Positions 31,993-43,602 of a stretch of 64,000 bases of DNA are shown here, piece by piece. The notes under the pieces were generated by a model. It searched no databases. It had not been told where the DNA came from and worked only from the letters and a program-made list of their open reading frames with translations. Source of the DNA: Microbacterium sp. BK668. GTDB taxonomy: Bacteria > Actinomycetota > Actinomycetes > Actinomycetales > Microbacteriaceae. Numbering within the stretch: the first letter of the stretch is position 1; each line of letters starts with the position of its first letter. The DNA is taken from assembly GCF_004362195.1 (NCBI RefSeq), contig NZ_SNWG01000001.1, positions 1,302,001 to 1,366,000 on the forward strand. Reading direction: 5' to 3'. Both the position numbers and the translations under genes were made by a program.

Positions 31993-33015
31993 CTAAGGGC
32001 CGAGACTCGCCGTCGAACGGCGGGCGACGAGCTCCGTCGGCAGCTCGACCTGGCGGTTGCCGAGGGGCTCGCCCCGTCCCAGCCGGTCGACGAGTTCGAC
32101 CGCGAGCGCGGCCATGTCGTGGATGGGCTGGCGGATCGTCGACAGCGGCATTCCGCCCGGCGGCCGCGGGTCGTCGTCGAACCCGACGACCCCGATCTCG
32201 TCCGGCACGCGCCGGCCCGCGTGCAGCACCGCCGACACGACCGTGTGCGCGACGGCATCGTTGACGGCGAAGACGCCGAGCCGCGCGTCGACGGAGAGCT
32301 CGACCAGCCGCCGGATGCCGGCGCGAGACACCCCGCCGACCCAGTCGGCGTCGATCAGCTCGACGCGCGCTCGGGGCAGGAGTCGCGCGAGCTCCTCGCG
32401 GAAGCCCTGCTCACGGGCCCGGCCGAAGCGGTAGCGCAGCGCGGTCGTGGCGAAGACGAATCGCTCGTAGCCCTCCGCGACGAGGTGCCGCGCGGCATCC
32501 CTCCCGCCCTGGCGGTTCGTCGCGCCCACCGTGACGACACCCGGCTCGGTATCGGACCGGGGATCGAGCACGACGCTCGGCACCGCGAAGTCCGAGAGGC
32601 GGTCGAGCTGGCGTCGCGTCGGGGTGATGATGGCGAAGACGACCCCCGACGACCGCCGCGCGGCGACGCGGGCGGGCCAGTCGTCCGCCGGGTCGGTGCG
32701 CTCCTTCGTGAGGACGACGTCGTAGCCGAGCGCGAACGCGCGCTCGTGCGCACCGAGGATGACCTGGTGCGTCCAGGGGCCGCCGAGTCCCCCGAGGACG
32801 AGCTCGATGAGCCGCGGATCGGTGTGCGCCCGCCGGCCGCGGTTGGTCGTCGCGCGGTCGTAGCCGAGCGCCGTCGCTGCATCGTGCACGGCGCGCCGGG
32901 TTGCGAGGGAGAAGTCGCCCCGCCGGGACAGGACGCGTGAGACGGTGCCCGCCGAGACGCCCGCGGCAGCCGCGACGTCGGCGAGCGACGCACGGCGGCT
33001 CGCCTCGTCGGTCAC
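31993..33015 (-). CDS. LacI-family transcriptional regulator
   Basis: A 340-residue regulator. HTH at ASLADVAAAAGVSAGTVSRVLS, then a type-1 periplasmic-binding fold ending VVGFDDDPRPPGGMPLSTIRQP. Start is the GTG at 33015, which directly precedes the HTH; no better codon exists. It is divergent from the ThuA/dehydrogenase pair, with a TGCGCA-centred palindrome between, so these are its likely targets. The inducing sugar is unknown. Confidence 0.9.
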   Translation of the reverse strand: MTDEASRRASLADVAAAAGVSAGTVSRVLSRRGDFSLATRRAVHDAATALGYDRATTNRGRRAHTDPRLIELVLGGLGGPWTHQVILGAHERAFALGYDVVLTKERTDPADDWPARVAARRSSGVVFAIITPTRRQLDRLSDFAVPSVVLDPRSDTEPGVVTVGATNRQGGRDAARHLVAEGYERFVFATTALRYRFGRAREQGFREELARLLPRARVELIDADWVGGVSRAGIRRLVELSVDARLGVFAVNDAVAHTVVSAVLHAGRRVPDEIGVVGFDDDPRPPGGMPLSTIRQPIHDMAALAVELVDRLGRGEPLGNRQVELPTELVARRSTASLGP

Positions 33016-33089: not shown

Positions 33090-33797
33090 ATGACGACGAC
33101 CACGCGGAAGGCGCTCGTGGTGCGCGGGGGATGGGACGGACATCAGCCGGTCGCGGCGACGGAGCGGTTCCTGCCCTTTCTGCGGGAGCGCGGATTCGAC
33201 GTGCGGGTCGAGGAGGCGACGGCTGTCTACGCGGATGCCGGCGCCCTCGCCGAGACGGACCTCATCGTGCAGTCGGTCACGATGTCCGAGATCTCCCGCG
33301 AAGAGCTCGAGGGGCTGCGTGCCGCCGTGGCAGCCGGGACGGGCTTCACCGGATGGCACGGCGGGATCGCCGACTCGTTCCGCGCGTCCTCGGACTACCT
33401 GCAGCTCGTCGGCGGCCAGTTCGCGACGCATCCCGCCGTCGGTCCGGGCATCGAGCGAGCCGAGGGCGAGGAGTACTACCGCGATCACCGCGTGGAGTTC
33501 ACCGACCTCGGGCGGAGGCATCCGATCACCGAGGGGCTCGAGGACTTCACTCTGCGCACAGAGCAGTACTGGGTGCTGTTCGACGAGCTCAACGACGTGC
33601 TCGCGACGACGACCCATCCGTCCGAGCCGGCGCAGCCGTGGCACCGCGCGCATACGTCGCCTGCCGTCTGGACGCGCGAGTGGGGAGCCGGCCGGATCGT
33701 CGTGACGACGCCCGGGCACAGCCTCGACGTGCTCGATCACCCGAGCGTGCGCACCATCATCGAGAGGGGGATGCTGTGGGCAGCGCGCACCGCATAG
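33090..33797 (+). CDS. ThuA-domain protein (trehalose-utilisation-like)
   Basis: A 235-residue ThuA-like, class-I glutamine-amidotransferase-fold protein. Characteristic parts are ALVVRGGWDGHQP, the GTGFTGWHGGIADSFR loop, YYRDHRVEFTDLGRRHPITEGL and VVTTPGHSLDVL. ThuA proteins accompany disaccharide oxidation in other bacteria, possibly acting on 3-keto-sugars. ATG 33090 follows GGAGGTG. The next gene starts inside its 3' end, giving a coupled pair with the dehydrogenase. Confidence 0.9.
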   Translation: MTTTTRKALVVRGGWDGHQPVAATERFLPFLRERGFDVRVEEATAVYADAGALAETDLIVQSVTMSEISREELEGLRAAVAAGTGFTGWHGGIADSFRASSDYLQLVGGQFATHPAVGPGIERAEGEEYYRDHRVEFTDLGRRHPITEGLEDFTLRTEQYWVLFDELNDVLATTTHPSEPAQPWHRAHTSPAVWTREWGAGRIVVTTPGHSLDVLDHPSVRTIIERGMLWAARTA

Positions 33798-34855
33798 GCG
33801 TCGTGGGCCTCGGCTTCATCTCCGCGGTCTACCTCGAGACGCTCGCCGCGGCCCCCGACGTCGAGATCACGGCCGTCGCCGACCTCGACCGGGCAAGGGC
33901 GGATGCCGCGGCCGGCTCGCTTCCGTCGGCGCGGGCCCGATCCGTCGACGCCCTGCTCGCCGCCGACGACGTCGACATCGTGCTCAACCTGACGATCCCC
34001 GCGGCACACGCCGACATCGCGCTCGGCGCGATCGCGCACGGCAAGCACGTGTACGGCGAGAAGCCGCTCGCGGTGACCTTCGCCGACGCAGAGGAGATCC
34101 TGCGCGCCGCGCGCACGGCGGGGGTGCGGGTGGGCTGCGCGCCGGACACGGTGCTCGGGACCGGCATCCAGACGGCGCGCGCCGTCGTCGATGCCGGGGA
34201 GATCGGCCGCCCGATCGCGGCGACGGCGCAGATGGTCACGCCGGGTCACGAGCGCTGGCACCCGAACCCGGACTTCTACTATCGACCGGGCGGCGGTCCG
34301 CTTCTGGACATGGGCCCCTACTACGTGACGGCGCTCGTGCAGCTCCTCGGGCCCGTGACGTCGGTCGTCGGAGCGGGCAGCAGACTCCGCTCCGAGCGCG
34401 TCATCGCGACCGGGGACCGCGCGGGCCAGGCCGTTCGCGTCGAGGTGGATTCGCACGTGACCGGCATCCTCCACCACGCGTCGGGCGCGCTCTCGACGAT
34501 CACGACGACCTTCGACGGCACGGCGACGCAGGCGCCGCCGATCGAGGTGCATGGCGAGAACGGCTCGCTGAGCGTGCCCGACCCCAACCACTTCGACGGG
34601 GAGGCCTCGGTGCACGAGCTCGGCGGGGACGGCTGGGTTCCCGTCCCGCCGCGGGCCGGGATCGCCGGCACCGCTCGGGGTGCCGGTCTGCTCGACCTCC
34701 TCCGCGCGCCCGCCGGGGTGGGGCCGCGCGCGTCAGGAGACATAGCGCTGCACGTGCTCGAGATCATGACGGGGCTGCTCGGCTCCGCGGCATCCGGCTC
34801 CCGGGTGGACATGACGACCACCGTCGAGCGCCCTCCTCTCGTCCCGCTCGCCTGA
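33776..34855 (+). CDS. Gfo/Idh/MocA-family sugar dehydrogenase
   Basis: A 359-residue NAD(P)-dependent oxidoreductase with HRIGVVGLGFISAVYL at the start, EKPLAVTF as the catalytic EKP motif, and HPNPDFYYRPGGGPLLDMGPYY. It is paralogous to the gene at 26330-27472, sharing APDTVLGTGIQTA/APDTVLGPGIQTA. The GTG at 33776 is chosen: GAGAGGGGG precedes it and it overlaps the ThuA gene by 22 bases. With ThuA it likely oxidises a sugar to a keto form. Confidence 0.92.
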   Translation: MGSAHRIGVVGLGFISAVYLETLAAAPDVEITAVADLDRARADAAAGSLPSARARSVDALLAADDVDIVLNLTIPAAHADIALGAIAHGKHVYGEKPLAVTFADAEEILRAARTAGVRVGCAPDTVLGTGIQTARAVVDAGEIGRPIAATAQMVTPGHERWHPNPDFYYRPGGGPLLDMGPYYVTALVQLLGPVTSVVGAGSRLRSERVIATGDRAGQAVRVEVDSHVTGILHHASGALSTITTTFDGTATQAPPIEVHGENGSLSVPDPNHFDGEASVHELGGDGWVPVPPRAGIAGTARGAGLLDLLRAPAGVGPRASGDIALHVLEIMTGLLGSAASGSRVDMTTTVERPPLVPLA

Positions 34856-34912: not shown

Positions 34913-35671
34913 TCAGTCGCCGAGCTCCAGCGGCCTGCCCGCGAGGCCGTCGCCCTCCCACCCGCGGGCGCGCGCGGTCGTGCGGCGGCGCGCGCGGACG
35001 AGCCAGAGGACGTCCCTGCCGAAGGACTCCAAGAGCAGGGCGAGCGCGATCCCGACGGCGGTCAGATCCGCCCAGAGCGGCAGGAGTCCCGACACGGCGG
35101 CCACCAGTGCGATGCCGGCGACGGCCGTGACCACCTTGCGCCAGTGGCGGTGGGGGAGCGTCGCGTTCATCCAGGGCCACACCCATCCCGCAGCGACGAA
35201 GACGTATCGCAGGGCGCCGATGATCACGACCCACCAGCCGAGCTCGGGCGCCACCGCGACGCTCAGGACGAGGAGGAGGAAGGCGTCGACCTCCATGTCG
35301 AACCGGGCGCCGAGTTCGCTCACCGTCCCGGTCCGCCGCGCGAGCCAGCCGTCGACGGCGTCGAGGGCGAGAGCCGGGGCGGCCAGCCCCGCGAGGAGGA
35401 GCGCCGGCACCTCCTGCGTGAACGAGGTGGCGACGAGGGCCGTCACGATCGCGACGAGCGTCGATCGCGCGAGGGTCGTGGCGTTGGCCGGTCCGAAGCG
35501 GCGGAGCCCGCTGCGGCGCAAGCCCCTCGCCAGAAGGACGTTCGACTCGAGAAGGTAGGCGATACCGGCAGACCAACCGAGGGGCGACAGATGAGTCATC
35601 GCGGCGACCGCGACCAGGCCGACGAGGCCGCCGGCCACAGACCACAGCGGCGAGAGCTGAACGTTTCGCAT
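34913..35671 (-). CDS. CDP-alcohol phosphatidyltransferase-family membrane enzyme
   Basis: A 252-residue integral membrane enzyme that joins a CDP-activated lipid or alcohol to a hydroxyl acceptor. The full signature DG-x2-AR-x8-G-x3-D-x3-D is present as DGWLARRTGTVSELGARF followed by DMEVD, so it should be active. Six or more helices are expected. ATG 35671 is chosen (GGAAGGAGA lies 12 bases upstream); starts at 35707 or 35743 would add residues unlike the family. It is divergent from the MDR-PTPS-GT4 operon across 83 bases, and I place it in that system by position only. Confidence 0.88.
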   Translation of the reverse strand: MRNVQLSPLWSVAGGLVGLVAVAAMTHLSPLGWSAGIAYLLESNVLLARGLRRSGLRRFGPANATTLARSTLVAIVTALVATSFTQEVPALLLAGLAAPALALDAVDGWLARRTGTVSELGARFDMEVDAFLLLVLSVAVAPELGWWVVIIGALRYVFVAAGWVWPWMNATLPHRHWRKVVTAVAGIALVAAVSGLLPLWADLTAVGIALALLLESFGRDVLWLVRARRRTTARARGWEGDGLAGRPLELGD

Positions 35672-35754
35672 CGCGCTGACCGTTCTCCTTCCGTGGTGAC
35701 CATTCATGACACGGAATCCGCCCATCGCGCAGTTCACTTGCAATCGGGGCGCAG

Positions 35755-36735
35755 ATGAGGCAGGCGACCGCGTTCTGGGTGGAGGAGCCGGGCCGGGGAG
35801 CGCTGCGCGTGCAGCGGCTGGCCGAGCCGCGACGCGGTGAGGTCCTGGTGCGCACGCTCTACACGGGCATCAGTCGCGGCACGGAATCGGTCGTGTTCCG
35901 CGGTCAGGTGCCCGACAGCGAGCACTCCCGCATGCGGGCTCCATTCCAGGTCGGAGACTTCCCGGCGCCCGTCGAGTACGGCTACCTCAACGTCGGCGTC
36001 GTCGAGGAGGGTCCGCACGACCTGATCGGCCGCACCGTCTTCACTCTCTTCCCCCACCAGTCCGCCTTCGTCGTGCCGCACGATGCGGTCGCCGTCGTGC
36101 CGCACGACATCCCGGCGCGGCGGGCGGTGCTCGCGGGCGCCGTCGAGACCGCCGTCAACGTCCTGTGGGATGCCGCGCCGCTCGTCGGCGACCGGATCGC
36201 CGTCGTCGGGGCCGGCATGATCGGCTGCGCCATCGCGCGCCTGACGAGCGGGCTTCCGGGCGTCGACATCGTCGTGGTCGACGTCGACCCCGGCAAGGCG
36301 GACGTCTGCGCGCGCCTCGGCGTCCGGTTCGCCCTGCCGGACGACGGCCCCGACGAGCGCGACCTCGTGATCGACACGAGCGGGTCGCAGGCGGGGCTTC
36401 AGCTCGCGCTGCGCTCGGCCGCGACCGAGGGTGAGATCATCGAGGCGAGCTGGTTCGGCGACCGCTCGGTGACGATCGACCTCGGCGGCGCCTTCCATTC
36501 GCGGCGGCTGTCGATCCGCTCCAGCCAGGTCGGGATGGTCGCACCGCGGCGCCGCGGGACGCGCACCCTCGCCGACCGGATGGCACTCGCGGTCGGCCTG
36601 CTGCGCGACGAGGCCTTCGACGCGCTTCTGACCGGCGACTCTTCGTGGCGTGACCTTCCGCACGTCATGGCCGCGATCGCCGACGGCTCGACGCCCGGGC
36701 TGTGCCACACGATCGACTGGAGGGACGCCGCATGA
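35755..36735 (+). CDS. Medium-chain dehydrogenase/reductase without zinc ligands
   Basis: A 326-residue MDR oxidoreductase. [13 protein letters not shown] replaces the usual GICGTD zinc motif and there is no structural Cys cluster, so it should work without zinc, like BchC-type enzymes. The Rossmann motif is [16 protein letters not shown], and [17 protein letters not shown] suggests NAD. It is the first gene of a run of six genes joined by four-base overlaps. Its stop overlaps the PTPS-like start (ATGA). The substrate is unknown; oxidation or reduction of a sugar or pterin side chain is possible. Confidence 0.88.
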
Positions 36736-37127
36736 CCTATTCGCTGACGGTCCGTGACCACATGATGGTCGCGCACAGCTTCACCGGTGAGATGTTCGGC
36801 CCGGCGCAGAGGCTGCACGGGGCGACCTTCGTCGTGGACGCGACGTTTCGCGCCCACGACCTCGACGACGACGGCGTGGTCGTCGACATCGGTCGCGCCG
36901 CCGAGGCGCTGCGCGGCATCCTCTCGGCGCTCTCGTATCGAAACCTCGACGACGAGCCCCAGTTCCAGGGCGTCAACACCACCACCGAGCGGCTGTGCCG
37001 GCACGTCGCGGATCGGCTCGTCGAGCTCGCGCGCGAGGGCGCACTCGGCGGAGGCGCGCTGACCGGCATCGGCGTCACGCTCCACGAGTCGCACATCGCG
37101 TGGGCGTCGTACGAGGTGGCCCTGTGA
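36732..37127 (+). CDS. 6-pyruvoyl-tetrahydropterin synthase-like protein with degenerate active site
   Basis: A 131-residue PTPS/QueD-fold protein. The overall pattern is retained ([40 protein letters not shown] for PT-E, VTLHES with late Glu). However, the zinc triad has only H15 and H29: the third ligand of HGH is Ala31. The catalytic Cys before HGH and the Asp-His pair of LDHxxLN (here LSYRNLDD) are also missing. It may bind a pterin or purine-derived ligand without the normal reaction, or catalyse something new. ATG 36732 overlaps the previous stop, and its own stop overlaps the GT4 start. Confidence 0.84.
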
Positions 37128-38191
37128 CCGCAGGGCCCACCGTCTGGTTCGTCGTCCCCGAGGGGATCGACGATCCTGCGCGCGTGAGCGGCGGCAACCT
37201 CTACGACCTGCACGCGGGGAGGGCGCTCGCCGCTCGGGGGTGGGACGTGCGGCTGATGCCCGTGGCGCCCGACGAGGAGCATCCTCCGGCCGGTTCGGGT
37301 GCGCGGCCGGCGGCCGTCGCATCCCTCCTCGCCGGGATCGACGACGACGACCTCGTGCTCGTCGACGGGCTCGTGGCCGGCCGGTCGGCCGCGGCCGTCG
37401 AGGCCGAGGCGCAGCGGCTGCGGATCGTCGTGCTCGCGCACATGCTGTCGGCGGACTTCCCGGATGCCGAGGCCCGCGTCATCGAGGGCGAGAGGCGGGC
37501 CTTCGCAGCGGCGCGGCTGATCGTGACGCCGAGCGCGTGGACGCGCCGGCGGATCGCGGAGGAGGGACTCGCCGGCGAGGAGGGGATCGTGGTGGCGCAT
37601 CCGGGCACCGACGGCGGCGCGATCGCGGACGGGAGCGCCGCCGGGACCGAGCTCCTGTGTCTCGGCGTAGTGGCCCCGCACAAGGGGCAGGACGTGCTCG
37701 TCGAGGCGCTCGCGAGCCTCGCGGCGGCCCGGGGGTGGAGGTGCACGATCGCGGGCTCCCTCGAGACCGAGCCGGGCTTCGCGCGCGACGTCCGGCAGCG
37801 CGCCCGCACGGCCGGCATCGCCGACCGCGTGCTGTTTCCCGGGGTCCTGACCGGTTCGCGCCTGGAGGAGGCGTTCCGCGCCACGGATCTCGTCGTCGTG
37901 CCGTCGCGGGTCGAGAACTTCGGCATGGTCGTGATCGATGCCCTGAGCCGGGGCATACCCGTCGTCGCGAGCGAGACGGGCGGGGTGCCCGAGGCCACGG
38001 CCTCCACGCGAGCGGCGATCCTGGTGCCGCCCGGCGACAGCGCGGCGCTCGCGCGGACCCTGGCGAACTGGCTCGCCGATCCGGCGCTGCGTGCGCGGCT
38101 CACCGACGCCGCCCGCGGCAGCCGCGGCGATGCGCCGAGCTGGCGCGACACCGCCGAACGCGTCGCACACGCCCTGGAGTCGGCGCGATGA
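37124..38191 (+). CDS. GT4-family glycosyltransferase
   Basis: A 355-residue GT-B glycosyltransferase. The N-lobe has [22 protein letters not shown] for acceptor binding. The C-lobe has the [16 protein letters not shown] segment and nucleotide-sugar site [30 protein letters not shown], where the second Glu of EX7E is Asp. It probably transfers a hexose from a nucleotide sugar onto a lipid or small-molecule acceptor on the cytoplasmic face. Start is GTG 37124, which overlaps the PTPS-like stop (GTGA). Downstream it overlaps the methyltransferase by ATGA. Confidence 0.9.
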
Positions 38192-39000
38192 GCGACGTCA
38201 TTGCCGTGTCGGCCGAATGGCTCACCCTGCGCGAGCAGATCGACGCGGGCTCCCGGTCGGTGCGGCTCGCCCGGGAAGCCGCACGGCTCGTCGAGGGGCC
38301 GGTCGTCGTGCACGACCTCGGCAGCGGCACGGGGTCGATGATGCGCTGGCTCGCGCCGTCCCTGCCGGGGCCGCAGACGTGGGTGCTGCACGACTGGAAC
38401 GCCGAGCTGCTCGCCCGGGCATCGGCGCAGCCCGGCGCCGACGTGCAGGGGCGGTCGGTCGCGGTGGAGGAGAGCGTCGAGCATGCCGAGCACCTGCTTC
38501 CCGAAGACCTCGCCGGCGCGTCGCTGGTCACGGCGTCGGCACTGCTCGACGTGCTGACCCGCGACGAGCTCGATGCCGTGGTGGATGCCTGCGCAGCCGT
38601 CGCCGCCCCCGCCCTCTTCAGCCTGAGCGTGACCGGCCGCGTGCGGCTGGATCCCGCCGACCCCGGCGACGGGGTCTTCGAGGCGGCGTTCAACGATCAT
38701 CAGCGCCGGCTCGCCGGCTCTCGTCATCTCCTCGGGCCGGATGCCCCCGCGGCCGCAGCCGCGGCGTTCCGCCGCGCAGGGTGGGTCGTCCGCCTCGCCG
38801 AATCGCCGTGGCGTCTGACCGCGAACGACCACGCGGTGACCGCTGCGTGGCTCGAGGGATGGGTCGCCGCCGCCATCGAGCAGCGGCCGACCCTCCTGGA
38901 GTGGGGCGACGAATACCTCCTGCGCCGCATGCGGCAGCTGACGCGGGGCGAGCTGCGCGTCGTGGTGCAGCACCTCGACCTCCTGGCGCATCCCGCATGA
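38188..39000 (+). CDS. Class I SAM-dependent methyltransferase
   Basis: A 270-residue Rossmann-like methyltransferase. Motif I is VVVHDLGSGTGSMMRWLA, acidic loop II LHDWNAEL, and motif IV SLVTASALLDVLTRDELD. The C-terminal half carries LESPWRLTANDH-like loops around substrate and has no membrane helix. Target unknown; the operon suggests methylation of the glycosylated intermediate. It overlaps genes on both sides by ATGA. Confidence 0.86.
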   Translation: MSDVIAVSAEWLTLREQIDAGSRSVRLAREAARLVEGPVVVHDLGSGTGSMMRWLAPSLPGPQTWVLHDWNAELLARASAQPGADVQGRSVAVEESVEHAEHLLPEDLAGASLVTASALLDVLTRDELDAVVDACAAVAAPALFSLSVTGRVRLDPADPGDGVFEAAFNDHQRRLAGSRHLLGPDAPAAAAAAFRRAGWVVRLAESPWRLTANDHAVTAAWLEGWVAAAIEQRPTLLEWGDEYLLRRMRQLTRGELRVVVQHLDLLAHPA

Positions 39001-39998
39001 GCCGCTGGACCGCGGCACCGCGGACGCTCGCGATCTCCGCCTCGCCCCTCGTGCGGGCATGGATCAAGCCGGTGGTGGGGTGCGCGATCCTCGTGGCGGT
39101 CATCCTGCACGCCGGCGCGGAGCCGTTCCTCCGCGGGATCACGTCGCTGTCGGTCCTGCCGATCGTCGCCGCCACGGTCCTCGCCGCCATCGCGACGTCG
39201 GCGGCCGCGTGGCGGTGGCGTCTCATCGCCGGAGGCCTCGACATCCCCCTCGCCCAGACAGGCGCCGTCGCGGCCTACTACCGGTCGCAGTTCCTCAACA
39301 CGGTGCTCCCCGGCGGCGTCCTGGGCGACGTGCACCGTGCGATAGCGCACGGTCGCAGCGTGCGACAGGTCGGCGACGCGTCCCGCGCCGTCGTCGCCGA
39401 GCGCACGGCGGGGCAGACCGTGCAGCTGGTCGTCGCCGCCGTCGTACTGGCGTCTCTCGGTGTCTGGGCATACGCTCCCGCTGTGGGCGTGATGGTCCTC
39501 GCAGTCCTCGTCGTCTGCGCCGGCGTCGTCCTCGCAGCGACGCTCAGCCGGCGTGCCCGCACGACGCTGCTGCGCGAACTCCAGCGGATCAGGGCCGCCT
39601 TCGCCGGACCTCGAACCATCGTCGGCGTCGTCGCGGCGTCGGCTGTCGTGGTCGCGTGCCACGTCGCGACGTTCGTCGTCGCGACGGTCGCCGTCGGCGC
39701 GCGGACGTCTCCGCAGGTCCTCGCCGCGGTCGCGCTCATCGCGGTCCTCGCGGGATCGATCCCGCTCAACGTCGGGGGATGGGGACCGCGCGAGGGCGCT
39801 GCGGCGTGGGCCTTCGCCGCCGCGGGCCTGGGCTCTGCGACCGGCATCGCCGCCGCCACGGCGTACGGCGTGCTCGCGATGATCGCCGTCGCTCCCGGAG
39901 CCGCCGTGATCGCGGCATCCGTCCTCCGGCGTCGTCGTGGGGACCCGCTCGATCGCCGCCATGCCGACGCCATGGCCGTCGAGGAGCCGACGGCATGA
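38997..39998 (+). CDS. UPF0104/lysylphosphatidylglycerol-synthase-type membrane protein
   Basis: A 333-residue membrane protein with seven to eight hydrophobic helices. Family landmarks are SQFLNTVLPGGVLGDVHRA in the first half and GSIPLNVGGWGPREGAAAWAF in the second. These match the flippase-like membrane half of MprF and the YbhN proteins, without the aminoacyl-transfer domain. In this operon it may move a lipid-linked product across the membrane (inference). It overlaps the methyltransferase and the RibD-type reductase genes by ATGA. Confidence 0.88.
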   Translation: MSRWTAAPRTLAISASPLVRAWIKPVVGCAILVAVILHAGAEPFLRGITSLSVLPIVAATVLAAIATSAAAWRWRLIAGGLDIPLAQTGAVAAYYRSQFLNTVLPGGVLGDVHRAIAHGRSVRQVGDASRAVVAERTAGQTVQLVVAAVVLASLGVWAYAPAVGVMVLAVLVVCAGVVLAATLSRRARTTLLRELQRIRAAFAGPRTIVGVVAASAVVVACHVATFVVATVAVGARTSPQVLAAVALIAVLAGSIPLNVGGWGPREGAAAWAFAAAGLGSATGIAAATAYGVLAMIAVAPGAAVIAASVLRRRRGDPLDRRHADAMAVEEPTA

Positions 39999-40729
39999 CC
40001 AGGCCCTACGTCACCCTCAGCTGCGCGATGTCGATCGACGGCTACCTCGACAGCGCCGCGCCCCACAAGCTGGCGATGTCGAACAGCGCCGACTTCGATC
40101 GCGTCGACCAGCTCCGCGCCGACAGCGACGCGATCATGGTCGGCGCCTCGACGGTGCGGCGCGACGACCCCCGCCTCCTCGTCCGCAGCCAGGAGCGGCA
40201 GCTCGTGCGGACGGCTGCGGGGCTCCCGTGCTCGCCGGTCAAAGTGACCGTCACCGCGACGGGCGACATCCCCTGCGAGGCGGCCTTCTTCCGCGAGGGG
40301 GATGCCGACAAGCTCGTGTACTGCCCGCGCGACATCGCCCCCCAGCTCGCCGCGCGTCTGGACGGGGCGGCGACGGTCGTGGGTGTCGGGACGGGCGAGG
40401 TGCCGATGGCCGCAGTGCTCGACGACCTCGAGGGGCGGGGCATAGGGCGGCTGATGGTCGAGGGGGGCGGCCACGTCCACACGCAGTTCCTCGTGGATCA
40501 GCTCGCCGACGAGCTCCAGCTCGTGGTGGCGCCGTTCTTCGTCGGGGAGGCGCGGGCGCCCCGGTTCGTCGAGTCGGGCCGCTTCCCCTGGAACGCGAAG
40601 CACCGGGCCACCCTCGCCGAGGTGCGGCAGATCGGCGACGTCGTGCTGCTGCGGTATGCGCTGTCGGAACGGTTCACGCTCGAGGGCGACGAGTCGGCTT
40701 GCGCCCGGCGGCCCCTCACCCGGTCGTAG
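39995..40729 (+). CDS. RibD C-terminal-type (dihydrofolate-reductase-like) pyrimidine reductase
   Basis: A 244-residue reductase of the RibD_C family. Motifs are CAMSIDGYLD, AIMVGASTVRRDDPRLLVR (NADPH-binding loop) and RLMVEGGGHVHTQFL followed by DELQLVVAPFFVGE. Canonical members reduce the ribosyl group of a riboflavin intermediate. No deaminase domain and no other rib gene is present here, so a specialised reductase acting on a GTP-derived intermediate is more likely than riboflavin synthesis itself. It is the last of the overlapping genes; the sulfatase follows 14 bases later. Confidence 0.88.
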   Translation: MTRPYVTLSCAMSIDGYLDSAAPHKLAMSNSADFDRVDQLRADSDAIMVGASTVRRDDPRLLVRSQERQLVRTAAGLPCSPVKVTVTATGDIPCEAAFFREGDADKLVYCPRDIAPQLAARLDGAATVVGVGTGEVPMAAVLDDLEGRGIGRLMVEGGGHVHTQFLVDQLADELQLVVAPFFVGEARAPRFVESGRFPWNAKHRATLAEVRQIGDVVLLRYALSERFTLEGDESACARRPLTRS

Positions 40730-40743
40730 CCCGGGGACGACGG

Positions 40744-42417
40744 ATGCGCCCGACCGCCGCGAAAGGTGCACCCCGCGACCTGCCCTCCCCCCGCGACCCG
40801 TCCTCACCCAGCGACGAGTCCGGGTCCCGGGCCGCGACGGTCGCGGCGTTCGCGACGATCGTCCTCGCCGCGCTCCTGCCGGGCGCCCTCACCGCGGGAG
40901 ACGCGCGGGCGCTCCTCGGCATCCCGTTCGAAGTCGTCGCGCTCCTTCTCCTTCTGCTGGTCCTGCCCTGGCGGGCGGCGCGCACCCTCGTCGCGGTCCT
41001 CTTCGGCGGGTTGGTCGTCGGCGCCATCGTGCTCGGCGGGCTGGACCTGGCCTTCGTCGCGACGATCGACCGGCCCTTCGAGGCGGCGGGGGACTGGCCG
41101 CAGGTGGTGTCGGCCGCGGGCGTCGTCGCCGATGCGACCGGGCCCGTCGGTCTCACGATCGTCCTCGTGCTGGTCGCCGCCGTCGTGGCCGCTCTCGTCT
41201 GGGCGCTCGCGCTCGCGGCGCTCCGCGCGGGCCGCGCCGTCGCGGCAGCCGGCCGCGACGGACGCAGAGCCGTCGCCGTGATCGCGGTCGCCTGGATCGC
41301 CGGTGCACTGCTCGCCGCGCAGGCCGTGCCGGGTGTGCCGCTCGCGTCCGCCGATTCCGCGCGGGCGATCGCCGACACGACCGAGCAGACGGCCGCGGGC
41401 ATCCGCGAGCGGCAGTCCTTCGACCGCGAGATCCGGGTCGACTCCCTCCGGTCGCGCGACGACCTGCTCCAGGCGCTGGCCGGCAAGGACGTCGTCTTCG
41501 CTTTCATCGAGAGTTACGGGCGCGTCGCTGTCGAGGGCTCGACATGGGCGGACGGCGTCGACCGCGCACTCCGTCGGGGCGGTGATCAGCTCGCTCGCGA
41601 CGGATATCTCGCCCGGAGCGCCTTCCTGTCCTCGCCGACGTTCGGGGGAGTCAGCTGGCTCGCGCACGCCACGCTGCAGAGCGGGCTGTGGGTCGACTCG
41701 CCGCAGAAGTACGCGCAGCTCACCGCGAGCGACCGCTTCACGCTCGCTCGCGCCTTCGCCCGAGCCGGATGGACAACCGCCGCCGTCGTGCCCTCGAACA
41801 AGGAGGACTGGGACGCCGGAACCGACTTCTACGGCTTCGAGACGATCCTCGACTCGCGCAACCTCGGATACCGGGGACCGGCGTTCAGCTATGCCCTGGT
41901 TCCGGACCAGTTCACCTGGCGGCAGTTCCACGACCGCGTGCTCACTGCCGCGCCCTCGCCGGTCATGGCCGAGATCGATTTCGTCTCGTCGCATACGCCG
42001 TGGACACCACTGCCCCAGCTGCTGCCCTGGGGCGACCTCGGCGACGGGTCCGCGTTCGAGGCGCAGGCGGCGGCCGGTGACCCGCCCGTCGTGGTCTGGC
42101 AGGACCCGCAGCGCGTGAAGGAGATGTACGCCGCGTCCATCGAGTACTCGCTCGGCGCGCTCTTCTCATACCTCCAGACGTATGACCCGTCGGATCTCGT
42201 CCTGGTCGTACTGGGCGATCATCAGCCGTCGCGGATCGTCAGCGGAGAGGATGCCGATCGCGACGTCCCCGTGACACTCATCTCGAAGGATCCCGCCGTC
42301 ATGGCGCGCATCGACGCGTGGGGCTGGCAGCCGGGGGTGCTCCCGTCCAGCGATGCTCCCGTATGGCGGATGGATGCCTTCCGCGACCGCTTCTTCGACG
42401 CGTTCAGCGGCGGCTGA
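40744..42417 (+). CDS. LtaS-like membrane sulfatase/phosphoglycerol transferase-type protein
   Basis: A 557-residue protein with about five N-terminal transmembrane helices (residues 34-205) and an extracellular alkaline-phosphatase-fold domain (240-557). Metal and catalytic landmarks are FIESYGRVAVEGS (metal Glu), SPTFGGVSWLAHATLQSG (nucleophile Ser/Thr region), SSHTPWTPLP and LVVLGDHQPS (metal DH). The topology equals lipoteichoic acid synthase and phosphoethanolamine transferases, which act on lipid head groups outside the membrane. ATG 40744 follows the reductase by 14 bases in the same transcript. A role in transferring or trimming the head group of the operon's product is inferred. Confidence 0.87.
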   Translation: MRPTAAKGAPRDLPSPRDPSSPSDESGSRAATVAAFATIVLAALLPGALTAGDARALLGIPFEVVALLLLLLVLPWRAARTLVAVLFGGLVVGAIVLGGLDLAFVATIDRPFEAAGDWPQVVSAAGVVADATGPVGLTIVLVLVAAVVAALVWALALAALRAGRAVAAAGRDGRRAVAVIAVAWIAGALLAAQAVPGVPLASADSARAIADTTEQTAAGIRERQSFDREIRVDSLRSRDDLLQALAGKDVVFAFIESYGRVAVEGSTWADGVDRALRRGGDQLARDGYLARSAFLSSPTFGGVSWLAHATLQSGLWVDSPQKYAQLTASDRFTLARAFARAGWTTAAVVPSNKEDWDAGTDFYGFETILDSRNLGYRGPAFSYALVPDQFTWRQFHDRVLTAAPSPVMAEIDFVSSHTPWTPLPQLLPWGDLGDGSAFEAQAAAGDPPVVVWQDPQRVKEMYAASIEYSLGALFSYLQTYDPSDLVLVVLGDHQPSRIVSGEDADRDVPVTLISKDPAVMARIDAWGWQPGVLPSSDAPVWRMDAFRDRFFDAFSGG

Positions 42418-42437: not shown

Positions 42438-43394
42438 TCAGCGGCGGAGCGTGTCTGACGGGCGCTCGCCGTACTGCTCCGCATAGAGCTGCGCGAACCG
42501 GCCCGCGTGGACGAAGCCCCACCTGCGGGCGATGTCGCGGACGGCGACGCGCGCGTCGGTGGCGTTGCGGAGATCCTCGTGAGCGGCCCGCAGCCGCATC
42601 CGGCGGAGGTAGTGCGACGGCGTCATGCTGAACTGTCGCTGGAACGCCGACTGCAGGGCCCGGGTCGAGACGCCGGCCGCGATCGCGATGTCGGCGATCG
42701 AGAGGGGATCCTGCAGGTGCTGCTCCATGTGCGCGATCGCCCTGCGCACCGCACGAGACGTGGCGGCGGCGGGGCGAGGCGCTGCCATGTCGACGAGCGG
42801 GAAGGCGGCGAGGACGCTCGTCACGGCCTGGTCGATGATCCGGGCCCGCACGAGGGGTGCCTCGCGCAGGCTGGAATCCGCGACGAGCGTCGCCTCGACG
42901 AATCGCAGCGACTCGATCATCAACGCATGATGCCGGGACTCGCCGTTGACGCCGTCGAAGCGCAGCGTCGCCTGCTCCGTCCCGGTGAACCCCTGGACCG
43001 TCCGCCGCACGACGTCGGACTCGATGCGCAAGGTCCGCAGGTGCAGGCCGTTGAACTCGACCCGCAGGTCGCGGCCGGGCGGCACGAGGAAGGGCACCGC
43101 GCCCGGGCCGGATTCCCGCCCCGCGCGCCAGCGGTGTCGCCCCGCCGGGGCGTGGGCGACGATGAGGTCGGGGAAGGACTCCGTGCCCGACCGGCAGGCG
43201 CCCGAGAAGCGGAGTGTCGCCGCGGAGAAGCCGTCGTCGGTCACCGCCGCGGCCTCGTACCGGAAGTCGGCGGGAGGGTCGGCCACGAGCGCCATCGTCG
43301 TGCCGTACAGCTCGCGAATCGAGTGGCGTGCCTCGTCGAGGCTCGTGCTGCGTGCCATCCGCCGCGTGTACGGCGCCTCGAGGTCAGTGGACAC
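42438..43394 (-). CDS. AraC-family transcriptional regulator
   Basis: A 318-residue regulator. The C-terminal double HTH (about 215-318) reads DPLSIADIAIAAGVSTRALQSAFQRQ and ends ARRWGFVHAGRFAQLYAEQYGERPS. The N-terminal part looks like the AraC-binding-2 type. Start GTG 43394 has GGGAG at good spacing; GTG 43403 is an alternative nine bases upstream. It converges on the sulfatase gene (20-base gap), and its target is not evident. Confidence 0.88.
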   Translation of the reverse strand: MSTDLEAPYTRRMARSTSLDEARHSIRELYGTTMALVADPPADFRYEAAAVTDDGFSAATLRFSGACRSGTESFPDLIVAHAPAGRHRWRAGRESGPGAVPFLVPPGRDLRVEFNGLHLRTLRIESDVVRRTVQGFTGTEQATLRFDGVNGESRHHALMIESLRFVEATLVADSSLREAPLVRARIIDQAVTSVLAAFPLVDMAAPRPAAATSRAVRRAIAHMEQHLQDPLSIADIAIAAGVSTRALQSAFQRQFSMTPSHYLRRMRLRAAHEDLRNATDARVAVRDIARRWGFVHAGRFAQLYAEQYGERPSDTLRR

Positions 43395-43602
43395 CGGCGT
43401 CACTCTCCCAGGGTCTGCTGGCCGTTCTCACTCGGAATTCCCCATGCCGGCTCCTCGATCCGCTCGCCGGCACGCCGGCTCCGCCCGGAACCAACCCTCG
43501 CCGACGAGCCGCAGCATGGCGGCGGCTCTGTCCCGTACCCGAATGCGGCGTCCTCTGTGCGCATCCTGTGCGGAGGATGGGCACCCACGACGCTCCCCGC
43601 GC

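Follow-up and report, generated by a model that had tools for sequence, protein, structure and literature searches.

The closest described counterpart of the gene cluster analysed here is the SCO6650-SCO6655 locus of Streptomyces coelicolor. SCO6655, a GTP cyclohydrolase II (GCHII), has reportedly been characterised and is said to stop at a formylated product, with a Met replacing a Tyr. SCO6650, a PTPS homologue, is said to carry no zinc, to show no PTPS activity and to keep a pterin-like pocket. Like this locus, positions 34913 to 42417 of the present stretch of Microbacterium sp. BK668, which is 64,000 nucleotides long and will be referred to as the window, encode a PTPS-like orthologue with an MDR oxidoreductase, a GT4 glycosyltransferase, a methyltransferase and a UPF0104 protein as neighbours. 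Unlike it, the window cluster is devoid of GCHII and creatininase genes and includes a RibD_C reductase and an LtaS-like gene. Streptomyces loci such as L097 show the order PTPS, GT4, methyltransferase, UPF0104, creatininase and GCHII, an order compatible with the SCO numbering, given that SCO6655 is annotated as GCHII; SCO6651 to SCO6654 can be tentatively assigned by position. Altogether, we consider it fairly probable that the window carries the local version of a pathway that is widespread in actinobacteria and leads from GTP to a glycosylated, probably methylated small molecule. In the open-licence full-text literature, outside of which most subscription papers fall, no paper on the cluster and no identified product were found. 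The preliminary description of the window had called the combination undescribed, which holds in part only, as the structure of SCO6650 is solved and SCO6655 is, reportedly, characterised.

Other described systems share single elements with the cluster. In the archaeal riboflavin front end (ArfB, ArfC) and with BrbF, GTP is opened to a formylated pyrimidine and then deformylated (available part of PMC9478397), as proposed below; unlike that front end, our cluster has no riboflavin or lumazine synthase and is joined to GT4, methyltransferase, PTPS-like and membrane genes. The ten window proteins scanned with Pfam included no lumazine synthase, riboflavin synthase or deaminase. The PTPS/QueD family COG0720 shares T-fold homology (PF01242), whereas the window protein has lost the catalytic Cys, the third His of the HGH motif and the DH pair. 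This family has been divided into subfamilies I-VI in PMC5041015, where ‘RibD’ and ‘glycosyltransferase’ do not occur in the available main text. In the case of the 8-azaguanine cluster of Streptomyces, the likeness lies in a natural-product route with a GCHII-type pyrimidine used as substrate precursor, and the difference in a triazole made via nitric oxide, ‘QueD’ and ‘pyruvoyl’ being absent from the available main text (PMC7109123).

The window cluster consists of the following genes.

34913 to 35743, minus strand: CDP-alcohol phosphatidyltransferase family membrane protein (PF01066, E 1.4e-14; the start may be 35671)
35755 to 36735, plus strand: MDR-type NAD(P)-dependent oxidoreductase (PF00107, ADH_zinc_N, below cut-off, 27 vs 31.8)
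36732 to 37127, plus strand: PTPS-like T-fold protein, SCO6650 orthologue (PF01242, E 4.8e-22; structure 3d7j, E 1.5e-66)
37124 to 38191, plus strand: GT4 glycosyltransferase (PF00534, E 4.9e-31)
38188 to 39000, plus strand: S-adenosylmethionine-dependent methyltransferase-like protein (PF13649, Methyltransf_25, 28.6 vs cut-off 27)
38997 to 39998, plus strand: UPF0104/LPG_synthase_TM flippase-like membrane protein (PF03706, E 1.4e-29)
39995 to 40729, plus strand: RibD_C-type reductase (PF01872, E 1.4e-39; TIGR01508, 138.7 bits, below the cut-off of 186.45)
40744 to 42417, plus strand: LtaS-like alkaline-phosphatase-superfamily membrane protein, putatively of phosphoglycerol-transferase type (motifs; low-confidence model)

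Six open reading frames between 35755 and 40729 are coupled by five 4-base overlaps (starts at 36732, 37124, 38188, 38997 and 39995), the LtaS-like gene starts at 40744 after a gap of 14 bases behind the RibD_C gene, and the CDP-alcohol transferase gene is divergent. The seven-gene run of the preliminary description was thereby recovered, open reading frames and positions included. Its family calls were borne out by Pfam for CDP-OH_P_transf, PTPS, GT4, Methyltransf_25, LPG_synthase_TM and RibD_C; the MDR call stayed below cut-off and the LtaS-like call had no Pfam counterpart.

Relatives were compared in two samples. The first comprises the best 80 of 583 confirmed relatives among at least 593 pattern-matched stretches of a species-genome collection; as best matches these loci are biased, and some end at contig edges. 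They contain GT4 in 79 cases, MDR in 78, UPF0104 in 76, methyltransferase in 72, CDP-alcohol transferase in 69, RibD_C in 55 and LtaS-like genes in 35. The second is a sample of the window's class (394 genomes, 121 genera), in which a match at E <= 1e-25 counted as positive for the PTPS-like protein; 64 genomes from 21 genera were positive. The stretches around these 64 genes (about 9 kb on either side, shorter at contig ends) were searched with the cluster proteins at E <= 1e-6. MDR and GT4 were found in all 64, methyltransferase and CDP-alcohol transferase in 56 each, UPF0104 in 52, GCHII in 52, creatininase in 41, RibD_C in 20 and LtaS-like genes in 15, absences being soft where contig ends clip the stretch (e.g. 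G586, G524, G598 and G339). Because an MDR and a GT4 homologue accompany the PTPS-like gene at distances of up to about 9 kb in 64/64 genomes, the neighbourhood goes beyond chance. The genes are clustered in relatives rather than scattered, and the proposal that pyrimidine/pterin-type enzymes are inherited together with a glycosyltransferase and a methyltransferase was supported. Outside the class, Rubrobacteraceae carry RibD_C-MDR-PTPS-GT4, with a methyltransferase in all three loci scanned (L121, L124 and L139). Within the window's own genus the distribution is patchy: the PTPS-like gene was found in 0/12 other genus genomes of the class sample, yet it is present in named Microbacterium species, and the named relatives of the window's PTPS-like protein mark the stretch as Microbacterium-like. 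The gene set is a real, widespread and uncharacterised actinobacterial pathway.

Important insight can be gained from the GCHII genes that relatives hold in or near the cluster, Streptomyces holding both GCHII and a creatininase-family gene. If the reported effect of the Tyr-to-Met exchange in SCO6655 is general, a GCHII without Tyr at this switch position should require a deformylase, and this prediction was checked in two locus sets. Among 100 loci of PTPS-family genes, with the switch residue read on an alignment, a creatininase accompanies 30/30 non-Tyr GCHIIs, 0/42 Tyr GCHIIs and 0/28 loci without GCHII. In the 64 genomes, where the switch letters were read by pattern (one Tyr of ten, that of G632, by eye), it lies near 42/42 non-Tyr GCHIIs and near 0/10 Tyr GCHIIs, and in 0/12 genomes without GCHII. 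The two sets overlap by at least eight genomes, so that these counts are not independent. The 42 non-Tyr residues are Met (27), Leu (8), His (5) and Gln (2). In 41 of these genomes the creatininase gene is inside the stretch, and in G616 some 13 kb separate it from the PTPS gene. In a tree, the non-Tyr GCHIIs fall into a single clade (support 93/76), distant from the Tyr-type enzymes found in Micromonospora, Nocardioides and their allies, though long branches may mislead here; judged from this tree, distant GCHII lineages appear to have joined the same cluster. BrbF, a creatininase homologue, deformylates the formylated GTP-derived intermediate (available part of PMC9478397), which is the role proposed here. 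The pattern of tyrosine and creatininase is a direct prediction for enzyme activity.

In the case of the RibD_C reductase, the best NCBIfam model for the window protein is the archaeal 2,5-diamino-6-ribosylamino-4(3H)-pyrimidinone 5'-phosphate reductase (ArfC), at the sub-cut-off score listed above. The archaeal enzyme acts before deamination. The 20 RibD_C genes inside the 64 stretches fall into 13 close homologues, five of a second type beside creatininase and two fused to GCHII. A close homologue (E <= 1e-42) is found outside the stretch in 40 further genomes, giving 60/64 in total, and the five genomes of genus g8 (presumably Streptomyces) without a close copy carry the second type in the cluster. 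The GCHII-RibD_C fusions, found in the clusters L201 and L202, argue for the two enzymes acting in consecutive steps. A RibD_C homologue at 46% identity or more is present in 18 of 20 named cluster-bearing genomes; the exceptions are L095, with a RibD_C-like open reading frame overlapping the creatininase gene (by eye), and L108, whose RibD_C match near its cluster is weak. Within genus g8, an unlinked RibD_C (50-52% identity) occurs in 6/6 cluster-bearing but also in 1/3 cluster-free genomes, a weak test when taken alone.

An alternative route, with creatininase as substitute for RibD_C, was considered and rejected as main explanation. In three Lentzea loci (L102, L104 and L110) RibD_C stands together with a non-Tyr GCHII and a creatininase. 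Further genomes with a creatininase have a close RibD_C at another place, and five carry the second type beside creatininase. As separate observations, the unlinked RibD_C gene of the g8 loci L164-L170 lies near a Tyr-type GCHII in 5/7 loci, a second small riboflavin-like locus, and a total of nine RibD_C-family matches was found in the window genome, among them G000:C1:1743134-1744221 and seven other places.

The PTPS-like protein is the only PTPS-family gene product of the window genome, and its closest solved structure is PDB 3d7j, ‘Uncharacterized protein SCO6650’ of S. coelicolor, with the E value listed above. In the alignment it has Ala at the catalytic Cys position of QueD-like outgroups, HGA in place of HGH, and YRNLD in place of the catalytic Asp-His pair (DH.LN). 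Of the 100 loci, 96 were readable, after exclusion of L097, L103, L111 and L132, where the pattern matched the wrong place; 84 show Ala...HGA, nine of Rubrobacteraceae type show Ala...HGH, and three outgroups (L127, L128 and L130) show Cys...HGH. From these counts, the Cys is gone from the whole PTPS-like group and the third His only from the window's class. The QueC-adjoining outgroup L031, at the same genome place as L132, also retains the Cys. Judged by its residues, the window protein is no working PTPS. Glu119, which we take to be the pterin anchor, is kept and is nearly invariant in the alignment, QueD-like outgroups included.

For the MDR protein, the fold is of MDR type and the nearest relatives, by profile and by model, are alcohol, polyol and threonine dehydrogenases, among which oxidation of secondary alcohols is common; its top NCBIfam model is BchC at 50.9 bits, far under the cut-off of 291. 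GT4 and methyltransferase are fused in one reading frame in L201:9414-11318 (methyltransferase part E 8.3e-05, below cut-off), which suggests that they act in consecutive steps. Two further genes were seen beside clusters, a HAD-family hydrolase gene overlapping the GCHII-RibD_C fusion gene (L202:11743-12411, minus strand) and a histidine-phosphatase-family gene after UPF0104 in Pseudonocardia eucalypti (L105:13232-13858). A dephosphorylation step by such enzymes is possible.

Regarding the membrane genes, the CDP-alcohol transferase matches its Pfam model, and DxxDGxxARx8Gx3Dx3D, which we take to be the active-site motif of CDP-alcohol phosphatidyltransferases, is readable in the translation. 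The LtaS-like protein had no match at E 0.01 in Pfam or NCBIfam; two of its relatives match Pfam Sulfatase, one of them below cut-off. Motifs of the types ESYGR, SPT, SSHTPW and GDHQP are common to the window protein and six relatives, with L105 and others varying at SPT, and the low-confidence model (mean pLDDT 58) has LtaS (4uoo) as best fold match (E 7.9e-07, TM 0.31/0.40). BLAST with the window proteins detected no CDP-alcohol transferase, UPF0104 or LtaS-like gene around the clusters of two groups, Rubrobacteraceae and one family within the order of the window, a search that distant members could escape, as the methyltransferase did in Rubrobacteraceae, and in which the flanking open reading frames were Pfam-scanned in part. 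Since membrane genes went undetected in these small clusters, completion of the core product probably does not require them. The emphasis that the preliminary description had placed on lipid head-groups is therefore secondary: it fits the CDP-alcohol transferase (56/64) and UPF0104 (52/64), and fits less well the LtaS-like gene (15/64) and the small clusters.

Comparison of the gene neighbourhoods thus links GCHII, creatininase and RibD_C to a core of MDR, PTPS-like protein and GT4, and a sequence of steps can be proposed. In step 1, GCHII would open GTP. Enzymes that have the switch Tyr would release the deformylated aminopyrimidine nucleotide, and those without it a formylated product, which the creatininase-family enzyme would deformylate, these activities being taken from precedents. 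In step 2, RibD_C would reduce the ribosyl to a ribityl chain. Steps 1 and 2 together, as read from sequence comparison, we hold to be highly probable. In step 3, the MDR protein may oxidise the product, and the rebuilt PTPS-like protein may bind a pyrimidine or pterin and drive ring closure or a side-chain change. In step 4, glycosylation by GT4 and methylation by the methyltransferase would follow. For steps 3 and 4 in outline, we see a slightly better than even prospect. In step 5, present in most clusters of the class, the CDP-alcohol transferase, UPF0104 and sometimes the LtaS-like enzyme could anchor the product to the membrane or move it across, and here membrane attachment is a tentative suggestion that we rather doubt. 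In the window genome the sole GCHII is on another contig (C3), in a riboflavin-type locus with the best RibD_C match about 1.4 kb away. This enzyme would supply step 1, and the window species should draw its diamino-pyrimidine from the riboflavin route. The pathway also offers a setting for two puzzles of S. coelicolor, namely the reported halt of a GCHII after formation of the formylated compound and the reported inactivity of a PTPS homologue.

Several observations weigh against this pathway. The top NCBIfam model of the creatininase is mycofactocin MftE (127 bits vs a cut-off of 172), and it matches the archaeal deformylase model only weakly (36 bits vs 180). Given the single non-Tyr clade, the link to creatininase may stem from one or few events. 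A genome-wide search of the window genome found neither a creatininase nor a dedicated GCHII, and the stretches of G436, G496 and G595 also show neither gene. Close RibD_C homologues (E <= 1e-42) occur in 42/330 PTPS-negative genomes as well, vs 53/64 PTPS-positive ones, and the Fisher test of this co-occurrence ignores kinship. In four genomes of family f2, MDR-PTPS-GT4 is kept while the stretch shows neither GCHII nor RibD_C, and a RibD_C at E <= 1e-42 is likewise missing; in two of these genomes a second GCHII lies elsewhere. Finally, Streptomyces-type genomes have their unlinked RibD_C joined to a deaminase in one protein in 2/2 scanned (of seven loci), and this copy could serve another pathway.

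Expression data from S. coelicolor bear on the time of production. SCO6655 and SCO2687 are among the 15 genes most opposed to predicted flux, here that assigned to riboflavin (r -0.61 and -0.52), and according to the authors most flux-opposed genes rise in stationary phase (available part of PMC2853524). SCO6652, by position presumably the methyltransferase of the cluster, is up by log2 4.3 and 4.1 in the second mycelium at 48 and 72 h (available part of PMC3610822). Together, the expression of SCO6655, SCO2687 and SCO6652 suggests that Streptomyces makes the product late or in connection with sporulation.

The pathway can be specified further in two ways. One is a redox detour at step 3, in which the ribityl 2'-hydroxyl would be re-oxidised by MDR to a ketone that closes on the 5-amino group, yielding a dihydroneopterin-type phosphate without FolE for the PTPS-like protein to hold and process. 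The dehydrogenases nearest to MDR and the retained Glu119, presumably the pterin anchor, favour it; however, such dehydrogenases turn up as neighbours of MDR proteins in general, FolE yields the same compound directly so that the detour needs a reason, and the MDR-PTPS-GT4 trio lacks RibD_C in four genomes, and we find it rather unlikely. The other concerns the product, which specialised GCHII and RibD_C would feed and a repurposed PTPS fold would finish. It would be a ribityl-pteridine or ribityl-pyrimidine that is glycosylated, methylated and anchored in the membrane, and would represent a new class of lipid-linked molecule (a redox cofactor, a pigment or a surface molecule) with ties to stationary phase and sporulation. 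This we regard as unlikely.

Three explanations depart from the GTP-derived pathway altogether. A glycolipid or teichoic-acid-like surface pathway, with the PTPS-like and RibD_C folds in unrelated new jobs, would account for the frequent CDP-alcohol transferase and UPF0104 genes and the rarer LtaS-like gene, whose arrangements vary, and for the LtaS fold match of the low-confidence model. The recruitment of distant GCHII lineages and of creatininase speaks against it, as does the BLAST result for Rubrobacteraceae, with flanks Pfam-scanned in part; we consider it improbable. GCHII and RibD_C are riboflavin-type enzymes, and the cluster might thus boost or decorate riboflavin-type compounds. This we judge quite improbable, as lumazine synthase, riboflavin synthase and deaminase are absent from the scanned cluster genes, RibD_C is nearest to an archaeal reductase that acts ahead of deamination, and the window genome keeps its GCHII and best RibD_C match on another contig. 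Moreover, expression of SCO6655 runs opposite to predicted riboflavin flux (available part of PMC2853524). The databases, with names such as 6-carboxytetrahydropterin synthase, imply an ordinary QueD or tetrahydrobiopterin enzyme among unrelated neighbours. This annotation was rejected and is hardly credible: the catalytic Cys, the third His and the DH pair are replaced, the score is 40.6 bits vs the QueD equivalog cut-off of 89.25 (NCBIfam), and MDR and GT4 are constant neighbours (64/64). Such names are probably wrong for members of this subfamily.

The flanks of the cluster contain the following genes, as identified by Pfam.

33803 to 34855, as scanned: Gfo/Idh/MocA oxidoreductase
42438 to 43403: AraC regulator

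Among the 80 loci the former was matched in 2/80 and the latter in 0/80. Upstream, between 31993 and 34855, a LacI-like open reading frame (31993-33015, by eye), an open reading frame at 33090-33797 and the Gfo/Idh/MocA gene resemble a separate sugar-catabolic unit.

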